Below, piece by piece: positions 60,347 through 64,000 of a DNA stretch of 64,000 bases. This stretch comes from Nesterenkonia muleiensis. GTDB lineage: Bacteria > Actinomycetota > Actinomycetes > Actinomycetales > Micrococcaceae. The notes beneath the pieces were generated by a model, which worked only from the letters and a program-made list of their open reading frames with translations, ran no database searches and had not been told where the DNA came from. Every line of letters begins with the position of its first letter. Position 1 is the stretch's first letter. A program made the translations under genes and the position numbers. The stretch spans positions 248,001 to 312,000 of the forward strand of contig NZ_QWLD01000040.1 in NCBI RefSeq assembly GCF_003600155.1. The letters are read 5' to 3'.

Positions 60347-61552
60347 GTGAACGACTACCGAAAGATCTGGACGGGCAGTGCGGCCTCGAACCTTGCTGAC
60401 GGGGTGACTTTCGTGGCGCTGCCGCTGCTGGCGGCCACGATGACGGACGAACCGCTCAAGATTGCGGCGCTGTCGGTCGCGTACACGGTGCCGCGGCTGC
60501 TCTCGGTCCTGGGCATCGGCGTCGTCGTTGATCGATTCGATCGCCGCAAGCTGCTCTACTGGGCGAATTTCTCCCGCAGCGCGCTCTTCGCTGGACTAAC
60601 CGCGCTTGTTCTCACTGAGACCGCAACCCTCATCGCCCTCTACGTGGTGTACGCCGTCATGGGGGTGGTCGAAACGCTCTCAGACAGCACCGCAGTGGCG
60701 GTCCTCCCGCAGGCTGTGCACTCCTCGCAGCTCGACCGCGCGAATTCGCAGATCACTGGAACCCAGGTAGTCGTAGACGAGTTTCTGGGGCCTCCTCTGG
60801 GAGGTTTCCTCTTCGCGCTGGCGGCGTTCGTCCCATCGTTGCTGAACGTGTGTGCATTCGTCCTGGCGGCGCTGGCCTTCTTCAGTCTGCGCGGCACCTA
60901 CACTGTTCCCGCACACTGCGACCCTGGTTCGCGCCCGTCGTTTGTGCAGCAGGTCAGGGAAGGAATTGCCTGGGCTTGGTCGAATGCCATCGTGCGGACG
61001 CTCATCCTGATCGGAGGTCTGGCGAGCATCGGCTATATGATCCCGTTCTCGTACTTGGTTCTCTATGCAGGCGATGTGCTCGGGCTGGGGCCCACAGGTT
61101 ACGGTCTGCTGCTGTCGGCGTCCGCTGTGGGTGGGGTGTTGGGCAGCCTGGTGGCTGCTCCGGTGCGACGGCGGATCGGCTATCGCTGGACGATCACGGC
61201 TGCACTGATCGTAGGAGCTGGATCCTTCGCCGCCATCGCAGTCGTTGAGAACGCCTGGGTCGTCGGCTTCCTTCTCGCCACGTATATCGGTCATGCTGTG
61301 GTGTGGAACATCATGGCGGTGTCCATCAGGCAGAAGGTCACTCCAGCGGCCATGATGGGACGTGTGGGATCGGTCAGCCGACTGATCGGAATTGGTGGTC
61401 TCGCGATCGGAGCCGGTCTGGGAGGGCTTCTGGCCACCTGGTTCGGCTACCAGACGCCCTTTGCCGTCGCCGCCGGATTCTTTGGTCTCTGCCTTGTGCT
61501 CATGGCCCTGGCCTCTGGGCACTTCACGCGATTCGAGCGCGATGTCGCCTGA
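60347..61552 (+). CDS. MFS transporter (probable drug or siderophore exporter)
   Basis: A 401-residue membrane protein of the major facilitator superfamily with about 12 predicted helices. It has the loop motif VDRFDRRKLLYWAN between helices 2 and 3, and resembles the MFS_3/EntS-type exporters. N-terminal NDYRKIWTGSAASNLADGVTFVALPLL is typical of that group (motif at residues 2-20 and beyond). The substrate is unknown. GTG 60347 is the start. It ends 12 bp from the 3' end of the kinase gene on the other strand. Confidence 0.88.
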   Translation: MNDYRKIWTGSAASNLADGVTFVALPLLAATMTDEPLKIAALSVAYTVPRLLSVLGIGVVVDRFDRRKLLYWANFSRSALFAGLTALVLTETATLIALYVVYAVMGVVETLSDSTAVAVLPQAVHSSQLDRANSQITGTQVVVDEFLGPPLGGFLFALAAFVPSLLNVCAFVLAALAFFSLRGTYTVPAHCDPGSRPSFVQQVREGIAWAWSNAIVRTLILIGGLASIGYMIPFSYLVLYAGDVLGLGPTGYGLLLSASAVGGVLGSLVAAPVRRRIGYRWTITAALIVGAGSFAAIAVVENAWVVGFLLATYIGHAVVWNIMAVSIRQKVTPAAMMGRVGSVSRLIGIGGLAIGAGLGGLLATWFGYQTPFAVAAGFFGLCLVLMALASGHFTRFERDVA

Positions 61553-61564
61553 GGCTCCGTCGCA

Positions 61565-62728
61565 TCAGGTGGTGCGCATATTGGTGACATGCAGACGCCA
61601 GTGATCGGATCCGTCTGGGCCGACTGATACTTCAGCTCCGTAGGCTTCAGCGCGCTCTCTCAGGACTTCCAGCCCGATGCCGAGGGCGGGACTGTTTCGC
61701 TGCCGCTCTTGATTGATCTGGTTCAGAACACAGAGCTCTGCCCGGTCACCTTCCACCGCGAAACGAATGTGACAGGCGGGCTGACCATCTGCTGAGCGTG
61801 CTCCGTATTTGATGACGTTGGTCACTGCCTCCTTGAGAATGTGGTAAAACGCCACTTGCGCCGAAGGCCCCAGAGTGGTCGCGCCGGTGGTCGATTCCAC
61901 CGTGGTGGGAATCCCTGAATTGCTGAGCTCATCTTCGAAGTGCTGCAGACTCTCCGGGATCGAGGGAAGCACCAGGTCATCGGTTTCAGGTATCGGCTTA
62001 TTGTCCCGCAGCAGTGTCACCATTCGGCCAATCCGGTCAATAGTCAGAGTGGCTCTGTCAAGGACCGAATCCAGCTCTGTCACTACTTGTGGGTCACGCT
62101 GGTCCAGCTGCAGCCGCTGGGCCTTCATGACGATGACGGTGAGGTCACTCACTGCGTTGTCATGAAGTTCGCGAGCCAGAGATGAGCGTTGTTCCGCCAG
62201 GGAGCTTTCCGCTTGCGTGAGTTCTGATCGTGACCGGTCCCGATCCCTGCTGAGGCTACGCACCAGGCGTCCGATGGCATAAGCGAGCACTGTGAGACCG
62301 GTTACCACCATCGCGCCAAGAACCTGTACTTGAACATTTTCCAGGCCTGCGAACTGAGAGACGAGCCATGCAAGTGCAACTAAAGCGTAGACCTGTCTGA
62401 CGGCCGGTCTGCCATAGGTGGCCAAGACGCCCACCATGATGAGGACGAAAAGTTCCTGATCGATGGAGACATAGCCGAGGAAGAGCCTCACGCCAGCAGC
62501 GGCAAGGAGCCCCGCCAATGCAGCCCACCCCGCTCCGATCCATAGGGCCCCGACTGTTAGGAGCCATAGTGAAGTACCCACATAAAACTGCAGGCTCAGG
62601 GGCTCATCGCTGAGGATTGGCTGGGTCACTACAGTGAATATCGCCCACCCTACTCCGAAGGAAAATAGTATCCACCGTAGGACGGGGCTTGGCTTGTCAG
62701 ACTGTAGTTCTTGGCGGATTCTGTCCAC
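61565..62728 (-). CDS. Sensor histidine kinase (NarL-partner, HisKA_3 type)
   Basis: A 387-residue membrane kinase. Five or six hydrophobic segments fill residues 18-155. A coiled stretch follows, then the phospho-accepting His189 in ARELHDNAVSDL and a HATPase domain with EAVTNVIKYGA and LGIGLEVLRERAEAYG. It has no large extracellular domain, so the signal may be sensed in or near the membrane. The GTG 62728 start has no ribosome-binding site and lies 9 bp after the stop of the peptide gene, which suggests translational coupling. The response regulator is divergent. Base composition is lower in GC than the core genes. Confidence 0.88.
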   Translation of the reverse strand: MDRIRQELQSDKPSPVLRWILFSFGVGWAIFTVVTQPILSDEPLSLQFYVGTSLWLLTVGALWIGAGWAALAGLLAAAGVRLFLGYVSIDQELFVLIMVGVLATYGRPAVRQVYALVALAWLVSQFAGLENVQVQVLGAMVVTGLTVLAYAIGRLVRSLSRDRDRSRSELTQAESSLAEQRSSLARELHDNAVSDLTVIVMKAQRLQLDQRDPQVVTELDSVLDRATLTIDRIGRMVTLLRDNKPIPETDDLVLPSIPESLQHFEDELSNSGIPTTVESTTGATTLGPSAQVAFYHILKEAVTNVIKYGARSADGQPACHIRFAVEGDRAELCVLNQINQERQRNSPALGIGLEVLRERAEAYGAEVSVGPDGSDHWRLHVTNMRTT

Positions 62729-62737
62729 ATCAGCAGA

Positions 62738-62884
62738 CTACAGGCAGTACTGTGTGAGGCCTGCGTCACACAATACTTGCCGCCACCAATAGGGTTCGAT
62801 CAGAGGGTCAAGCAGAAATGCCTGTAGACCTCCAGTAGTGAGACCGGCAAGTCCAAGAACGTCGAATGCGAATTCCAACACCAT
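62738..62884 (-). CDS. 48-residue peptide, possible signal or precursor peptide
   Basis: A short gene with a strong ribosome-binding site: GAGGGGAG, 7 nt before the ATG at 62884. The peptide is hydrophobic, starting MVLEFAFDVLGLAGL, has a PYWWRQ segment near 31-36, and ends LCDAGLTQYCL with two Cys (39 and 47) eight residues apart. The kinase gene starts 9 bp downstream on the same strand. No family is recognised. It could be a peptide signal for the kinase, a precursor of a modified peptide, or a leader peptide that only couples translation. The frame also opens earlier, at 62923, without a ribosome-binding site. Confidence 0.55.
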   Translation of the reverse strand: MVLEFAFDVLGLAGLTTGGLQAFLLDPLIEPYWWRQVLCDAGLTQYCL

Positions 62885-63031
62885 GATGTGTCTCCCCTCA
62901 GAGTTGTCTTTCATTTTAATCATGGCCTGACCTCATGTGGTGTCGTCAATCTTTGACAGTTTCGGCGCATCTTTCTCAAAGACGGTTGGCCCGCGTTTAG
63001 GGTAATAACGAGCAGAGAAGAAGGACAGAGC

Positions 63032-63721
63032 ATGATTCGCGCCGTTATTGTGGATGATCACCCACTGATCCGTGAGACTTTGCGCCAGTATGTGGAGACT
63101 TCTGCTGACATCGAGTGCGTCGGTGAGGCTGCCGATGGACAGGAAACGATCAGCCTGGCTTTGGAACTTGAGCCGGACGTGGTCCTGATGGATCTGAACC
63201 TCCCGGTCAAAGACGGAATCAGCGCGACCTACGATATTACCCGCTCTTCAACGGTTCGAGTCCTCGTGTTCTCCGCTCTGGAGACTGACCAGGACGTTCT
63301 GCGCGCCCTCCAAGCAGGTGCTCGGGGGTATATGACCAAGCGAGCCGCGGCCCACGACGTCCTCCATGCGATCCGGCTAGTGCACCAGGGAGACCTGCTC
63401 TTTGCCCCAGATATCGCAGAGCTGCTGCAGGTCAATCAGAGAAGCTCTCAAGGGGAGGTGAAGAGACTTCTTCAGCGTCTGGTGTCGACTCCGCGCCTCA
63501 GTGGGCGTGAGCTTAGCGTTCTTCAGGGGGTATGTCGGGGGCTGACGAATCAGGCGATAGCCGATGAGCTTGTCATTCAGCTGAGCACAGTCAATACCTA
63601 CATCACGCGTCTGAACAAGAAACTGGGAACCCATACCAAAATCGATATGTATATCCAGGCAGTCAAGGAAGGCATCATTCCCTCGCCATTCGCCGAGAGA
63701 CCGACGGAGCAACGTCTATGA
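63032..63721 (+). CDS. Response regulator, NarL/FixJ family
   Basis: A 229-residue regulator. The receiver domain has the acidic pair Asp8-Asp9, phospho-acceptor Asp54 in LMDLNLP, Ser81 and Lys103. A linker follows, then a LuxR-type helix-turn-helix (about 155-215, LSGRELSVLQGV and AIADELVIQLSTVNTYI). GAAGAAGGA precedes the ATG. It is divergent from the peptide/kinase pair across 147 bp and overlaps the next gene by 4 bp, so that gene is the likely regulated target or an operon partner. Confidence 0.93.
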   Translation: MIRAVIVDDHPLIRETLRQYVETSADIECVGEAADGQETISLALELEPDVVLMDLNLPVKDGISATYDITRSSTVRVLVFSALETDQDVLRALQAGARGYMTKRAAAHDVLHAIRLVHQGDLLFAPDIAELLQVNQRSSQGEVKRLLQRLVSTPRLSGRELSVLQGVCRGLTNQAIADELVIQLSTVNTYITRLNKKLGTHTKIDMYIQAVKEGIIPSPFAERPTEQRL

Positions 63722-64000
63722 GCGGTCGAACATCCCGTCACCAACGTCGGACCGTTTCTGTCATTGGTGTGCTCTGTGCTGTCATTCTGGCTGCGGTGGT
63801 TGGGTGGTGGGCCGCTGCAGTGACGCTGGGTGATGCTGGGGTGGAGGATGAGGGGACTCCTGGTGAGCAGGAGGTCTGGGCTGCTGCGTCTCATGAGTCG
63901 GTGGGTCGGTCGTTGAATCTCTCCACTACTGTTCGTCAGCCTTCTGAGCAGGTGGGGAGTAATAGGTTTCCTGGCATTGTCCGTGAGGTTCAGGATGGTC
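63718..64000 (+). CDS. Membrane-anchored export adaptor, N-terminal part (runs off the right edge)
   Basis: An open frame of 94 complete codons runs from ATG 63718, overlapping the regulator stop (ATGA), to the window edge. It has a basic N terminus (MSGRTSRHQRRT), one membrane helix (about 14-35), and then VWAAASHESVGRSLNLSTTVRQP. That pattern resembles actinobacterial HlyD/RND-type periplasmic adaptor proteins that partner MacB-like ABC exporters. Codons end in T or G more often than in the core genes, which hints at a foreign origin. The family is a reasoned guess from about 95 residues. Confidence 0.55.
   Translation, partial: MSGRTSRHQRRTVSVIGVLCAVILAAVVGWWAAAVTLGDAGVEDEGTPGEQEVWAAASHESVGRSLNLSTTVRQPSEQVGSNRFPGIVREVQDG

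Follow-up and report, generated by a model that had tools for sequence, protein, structure and literature searches.

A small gene with a C-terminal cysteine pair ahead of a membrane histidine kinase in Nesterenkonia and its relatives: a candidate peptide-pheromone system

The window analysed here (a 64,000-nucleotide stretch of the genome of Nesterenkonia muleiensis) holds a 48-codon gene immediately ahead of the gene for a membrane histidine kinase. That this small gene is real, coding, conserved and linked to its kinase is near certain. What it is for is a question of probabilities: its product is probably the signal for the adjacent kinase, in a two-component pheromone system that would operate in the manner of ComX-ComP-ComA but use an unrelated signal. 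With less assurance, we also lean towards a broader reading, in which a family of disulfide-looped pheromones (W/F-x-C-x5..8-C), each matched to a HisKA_3 kinase of its own and to a divergent regulator of the NarL type, would serve quorum sensing in the Micrococcaceae and their relatives, and would come in cleaved secreted, membrane-anchored and leaderless (~20-residue) forms. Comparison of sequences attests to the conservation, the linkage, the coding constraint, the divergent regulator and the signal-peptide-like N-termini (approximately 53 of 69 precursors); peptide release, the disulfide, kinase binding, feedback, density dependence and output we infer.

The proposed mechanism can be stated briefly. 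The small gene would encode a precursor from which a peptide signal derives; on insertion into the membrane, or secretion across it, the C-terminal piece of the precursor would come to lie outside. That piece would be a loop closed by the two cysteines, probably as a disulfide, and led by the aromatic-hydrophobic W/F-x-C step. The polytopic HisKA_3 kinase would sense it via its membrane helices and phosphorylate the divergently encoded NarL-type regulator, which may act on the shared intergenic promoter, generating feedback. At the window locus the regulator may also drive a regulator-adaptor-ATPase-permease operon, and that operon may serve a bacteriocin-like secreted protein. As a putative ligand is encoded next to each receptor and has a clear C-terminal motif, the proposal is amenable to examination with short synthetic peptides. 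As for what is already on record in these bacteria, LuxR homologues are listed for Arthrobacter and Kocuria in excerpts from the literature. According to a 2026 study of density-linked competence in Micrococcus luteus, evidence for any dedicated peptide signal or two-component system is currently lacking (PMC12849477).

Layout of the locus

The proposed signal-precursor gene occupies 62738..62884 on the minus strand (an assignment based on its translation, on a relative in the G029:C42 contig and on comparison across the family). GAGGGGAG stands immediately 5' of its ATG at 62884, and its stop codon lies 9 bp ahead of the GTG of the kinase gene (61565..62728, minus strand); those 9 bp contain no SD-like sequence. 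Re-reading the sequence thus agrees with the original prediction of a 48-residue ORF with a strong ribosome-binding site directly before a kinase gene that lacks one. (A second possible start, the ATG at 62923 with GAGG upstream, would give 61 codons; the relative in N. ebinurensis has GAGGGGAG and the shorter start, as in the window.) The N-terminal half of the peptide is hydrophobic and is followed by ...YWWRQVLCDAGLTQYCL, with Cys39 and Cys47 as the C-terminal pair that had drawn attention in the first place.

The kinase is identified as a membrane kinase of the HisKA_3 type by Pfam, hydropathy and its place in a kinase tree. Its HisKA_3 match in Pfam is at 6.8e-08, HATPase_c falls under the cut-off, and the same search found no further sensor domain. 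About five hydrophobic segments can be discerned, which fits the earlier suggestion that membrane helices are its only sensor. On its other side, a gene for an MFS transporter (MFS_3/MFS_1 by Pfam, 60347-61552) converges on the kinase gene, 12 bp separating the two stop codons.

Between the peptide gene and the divergent regulator gene lies an intergenic region (62885..63031) containing an inverted repeat, TCTTTGA/TCAAAGA (62950-62956 and 62976-62982), and a 20-mer, ACTGTCAAAGATTGACGACA, at 62941-62960 in the minus-strand reading; both are putative regulator sites, a function that we infer. The regulator itself (63032..63721, plus strand) is of the NarL/LuxR type, with Pfam matches to Response_reg (3.7e-24) and GerE (7.3e-14). 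Its 3' end overlaps by 4 bp the ATG at 63718 of a periplasmic-adaptor-like gene, the arrangement originally described; this gene (plus strand, 63718..64000, continuing to G000:C55:312995) has a PG_binding_1 domain as its sole Pfam match. Past the window end follow a MacB-like ATPase (L003:12997-13659) and an FtsX-type permease (L003:13628-14779). Beyond these lie a candidate secreted protein of 91 codons (L003:14899-15174) and, one unrelated gene further on, a lipoprotein gene on the minus strand (L003:17425-18105). The original prediction had pointed beyond position 64000 for MacB-like ABC genes or modification enzymes: the former are there, and none of the latter was recognised by eye among the ORFs neighbouring the locus.

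The small ORF is a conserved gene

The cysteine pair alone is weak evidence for a gene, since, of the window's 358 ORFs between 40 and 110 aa long, 5 end similarly (C-x5-8-C-x0-2). The ORF is judged real because it is conserved in relatives. The closest relative of the kinase that was found, 51% identical and encoded in G029:C42 (Nesterenkonia ebinurensis MD2), is preceded by an intact ORF of 46 codons ending WWRERLCEIGFPAYC, which the window peptide matches at E=0.00121; identity of the window peptide to its nearest relative is only 30%, which counts against the proposal. (A technical note: searching directly with the window peptide gives matches in 54 of 147 genomes at E up to 10, and G029:C42 is the sole match outside the window that was taken further.) Other Nesterenkonia kinases are preceded by ORFs such as ...FICRAFPNASGC and ...FFCQYVDPFYCD.

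A family-wide search brought in 90 of 395 genomes with a kinase at E up to 1e-50. Fifty-two loci, hand-picked from 99 match rows to span genera (four of them also among another 26 loci that were read), were scanned for ORFs of 35 codons or more that end in C-x4-8-C-x0-3. One is present in 43 of the 52 regions upstream of the kinase. On the opposite strand of those stretches the figure is 2 of 52, and among other 500-bp windows from these loci it is 41 of 1282. The conserved small ORF for which the original prediction had suggested searching is found. Four of the nine misses (L148, L152, L157 and L173) have a peptide just beyond the stretch or the strict pattern. Carriers include Nesterenkonia species, Oceanitalea stevensii and Georgenia satyanarayanai, with 10 intact and one broken peptide ORF in the 21 loci read, of 46.

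The median dN/dS is 0.177 in one group of peptide ORFs (35 usable of 36 pairs) and 0.173 in another (39 of 66); by this measure the peptide ORFs are under purifying selection. The window-G029 pair, at a dS of 3.2, is near saturation. A chance ORF is rejected on conservation and dN/dS.

Distribution on the kinase tree

The kinase tree has 115 rows (it was made by a quick method, has long branches, is midpoint-rooted for drawing only, and omits L178, L192, L247, L248 and duplicate fetches). The presence of a peptide, as labelled by regular expression (72 of the 115 rows), requires 11 changes on this tree, against a mean of 35 when labels are shuffled; none of 500 shuffles came as low. After hand curation, which removed L126, L172, L112, L117 and L244 and added L189 and L241, a peptide is present ahead of 69 of the 94 kinases that make up one side of the tree and ahead of none of the 21 that make up the other, where the sole regex match, L244, was judged to be due to chance.

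Twenty-five of the 94 kinases are thus without an intact peptide ORF. Fourteen constitute one Nesterenkonia subclade (G000:C42:3444-4562 and 13 relatives, e.g., L044:4402-6348), with N-termini that are variants of FESGGFWSCRDLNKW. Outside it, L162, L165, L168, L182 and L126 have no peptide ORF at all, the long basal rows L187, L191 and L193 also lack one, L185 and L186 have a 15-residue ORF without cysteine ahead of the kinase, and the ORF of L041 is frame-broken. Loss of the small ORF from relatives that keep the kinase had been named as telling against the original prediction. The ORF is intact in the closest relative found, frame-broken at G029:C48, and absent from the subclade of 14 tree rows.

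Some side observations belong here. The peptide-less kinase gene of L044 lies only 36 bp from its divergent regulator gene. The tiny ORF of L185 and L186 (G563 and G661) reads MGIFYIFGKMIGIFR; those ahead of the related kinases of L188 (G550), L194 (G687) and L184 (G631) read MFASSIWTALCKLLRACS, MMMIRSGIWTALCRLLGLCS and MFGVVPMGFWTWLCEASGFCK.

Farther afield, in 77 genomes of another family of the class, a peptide gene stands ahead of every one of the four related kinases that turned up. A class-level search yielded a peptide at one of the 13 loci read (L241), regex matches in L244 and L246 being judged chance. Peptide-kinase pairs in G952, G1035, G1074 and G1090 (L241 and L257-L259) belong to one genus, with genomes of 2.3-2.8 Mb, of another family of the class.

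Motif and precursor types

The signature at the C-end of the family is typically W/F-x-C-x5..8-C. Among the 69 peptides the two cysteines are separated by 5 (8 peptides), 6 (44), 7 (6), 8 (10) or 9 (1) residues, and the last is followed by 0-2 residues in 65. Counting from the first cysteine, W or F occupies position -2 in 44 peptides, and G or P occupies position +4 in 53.

The precursors fall into three types. Approximately 53 of the 69 are signal-peptide-like, with an A-x-A, by a rule of thumb applied with hand correction (automatic starts were revised for six called "short", namely L128, L152, L153, L170, L121 and L122, and for two called "AxA", L095 and L104). Approximately 13, all from Nesterenkonia and including the window peptide, have a hydrophobic N-terminus and no clear A-x-A; for two of these, L037 and L171, a signal peptide is still conceivable, and the fourteenth Nesterenkonia peptide, L173, looks signal-peptide-bearing. 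The remaining three are leaderless, in ORFs of 18-21 codons. The window peptide itself looks like a membrane anchor, and a free peptide in this strain stays a proposal because a clear A-x-A cleavage site is absent. Genes for a protease or for maturation were not recognised next to the Nesterenkonia peptide genes.

Comparing 11 representative peptides with family models gave three weak single matches: to lactococcin_972 (0.011), to a protease-inhibitor model (0.037) and to DUF2759 (0.0046). No description of the peptide-kinase family was found in the family models or in the open literature (bioRxiv preprints and the majority of subscription papers lay outside the search); this widespread peptide family is apparently undescribed.

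Receptor, regulator and promoter

Between four and six hydrophobic segments are seen in the six kinases checked, a topology that rests on hydropathy. The membrane part is the more variable: its mean identity is 49, 59 and 63% in three groups, against 70, 80 and 89% for the rest of the protein. Distances between membrane parts are correlated with distances between peptides after allowing for the catalytic part, with partial r of 0.83 (p printed as 0.000), 0.41 (p=0.026) and 0.21 (p=0.083) in a Mantel-type test whose rows share ancestry. On these figures the sensor domains appear to track the peptides in two of the three groups, the third being suggestive at most, or weak.

A regulator gene is adjacent at each of 22 loci, divergent from the kinase gene at 21 and tail to tail with it at one (L216, in G029:C48). 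In each of nine Nesterenkonia genomes, all of one clade, a promoter element near the peptide gene is the sole such site when up to three mismatches are allowed, in keeping with feedback on the operon of peptide and kinase. Searching for a wider regulon with this element returned only the own locus in 9 of 11 genomes, and a reversed control gave a single match in G019 and another in G029. For the window 20-mer the only match was at its own place, in one of two genomes.

The exporter cassette is an accessory

The original prediction had left peptide signalling and modified-peptide export side by side. Comparative evidence supports the former well and does not support the latter: the three-gene adaptor-ATPase-permease cassette adjoins kinase and regulator at only 2 of 22 loci (the window and G029:C48), and most precursors are signal-peptide-like. 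An export system as the core of the locus is rejected on that count, and the cassette is, judging by its occurrence, accessory. Its proteins are 69-79% identical between the window and G029:C48, while the kinases there are 31% identical. Some ABC ATPase ORF (27-41% identical) occurs in the stretches fetched for L207, L210, L212, L222 and L223, with no match to adaptor or permease.

Of 30 genomes of the genus, five have the adaptor. In the four others besides the window's, G029:C48 has a kinase and regulator adjacent, G004 and G021 have neither in their ORF lists, and in G015 the contig begins at the cassette (in G004 it ends inside the permease). A homologous lipoprotein gene is near the cassette in all five (26-42% identity to that of the window). 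Three of them (window, G029 and G021) also have a candidate secreted protein, the three candidates being mutually dissimilar. The window's candidate (L003:14899-15174) has 46% G+C within a region of 63%, and its start has, by eye, no good ribosome-binding site. Cassette, secreted protein and lipoprotein together look like a candidate bacteriocin-like module that may be under control of the peptide system in the window. Export of a lactococcin-972 type was considered and rejected: the ATPase scores 144.3 bits against a TIGR03608 cut-off of 254.85, and none of the three secreted candidates matches that family in Pfam or NCBIfam. (The N. ebinurensis locus L216, in G029:C48, brings together a frame-broken peptide ORF, a lipoprotein gene, a secreted-protein gene and the ABC cassette.)

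Other explanations

If the peptide is not a diffusible signal, what else might it be? It might be a co-regulator in cis of the MgrB kind: an anchored small protein with two extracytoplasmic cysteines that binds the kinase helices and sets kinase activity without ever diffusing, perhaps reporting the redox state of the envelope. MgrB is itself bitopic, with two essential periplasmic cysteines (C28 and C39) for which a disulfide and a role as redox entry point are proposed in the part of the source available (PMC10576120), and the approximately 13 Nesterenkonia peptides, the window's included, offer just such a design: one hydrophobic segment, two C-terminal cysteines and no clear cleavage site. 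A released peptide is nevertheless better suited to the approximately 53 of 69 precursors that are signal-peptide-like, in which a linker precedes the motif, and to the three leaderless ORFs of ~20 residues; the motif, moreover, differs between close species and follows the sensor part of the kinase in two of three groups. We regard the anchored co-regulator, the main rival, as unlikely.

Two further explanations place the function elsewhere. The small ORF could be a mere translational leader that couples synthesis of the kinase to that of a functionless peptide, as the stop codon 9 bp before the kinase start and the lack of a ribosome-binding site in the gap would allow; a dN/dS of ~0.17, a conserved C-terminal motif and signal-peptide-like N-termini are so foreign to this idea that we give it hardly any credence. 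Alternatively, the peptide could itself be an antimicrobial, or its precursor, with the kinase and ABC genes constituting a self-sensing immunity. The MacB-like cassette does adjoin the locus in the window and in G029:C48, and in four other genomes it lies beside a homologous lipoprotein gene, joined in two of the four by a gene for a secreted protein; yet it is missing at 20 of 22 loci, and the 11 representative peptides have no convincing match to a bacteriocin family (E=0.011 for lactococcin_972, 0.0046 for DUF2759), which makes an antimicrobial very improbable. A peptide signal for the adjacent kinase is the reading that we prefer.

Relation to known systems

The likeness to MgrB-PhoQ, as far as the available part of PMC10576120 describes it, is one of architecture (a short bitopic two-cysteine peptide acting on a membrane kinase) and applies to the Nesterenkonia subset. 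Unlike mgrB, the gene described here stands ahead of that of its own kinase, and most of its relatives look secreted.

In the blp and plantaricin loci of lactic acid bacteria, bacteriocin production is regulated by a peptide and export is by a double-glycine peptidase exporter. A peptide, kinase and regulator beside an ABC exporter and a secreted-protein candidate recall that arrangement; the kinase is of another class, the transporter is MacB-like with no double-glycine peptidase exporter, and the cassette is absent at 20 of 22 loci.

The thiolactone and lactone systems, Agr and Fsr, combine a small cysteine-containing peptide, a membrane sensor, a LytTR-type regulator and AgrB. The first two have their counterparts here. 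Identity with Agr is rejected: kinase and regulator are of the HisKA_3 and GerE types, the regulator being Response_reg plus GerE instead of LytTR. No AgrB-like gene was recognised by eye beside the peptide gene.

The ComX-ComP-ComA quorum-sensing system of Bacillus also has a peptide gene before the gene for a polytopic HisKA_3-type kinase, and a regulator of the LuxR/NarL type. (ComP-ComA is assigned to the NarL family in the available part of PMC8895600.) The signal described here differs in having a cysteine pair and, mostly, a signal-peptide-like N-terminus, and the regulator gene is divergent; no ComQ-like prenyltransferase gene was recognised by eye in the ORF lists around the peptide gene, and ComQXPA is to that extent, by eye only, excluded. 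What is shared with peptide-pheromone two-component systems in general is a conserved peptide gene beside the kinase gene and, adjacent to it, the gene for the cognate regulator.
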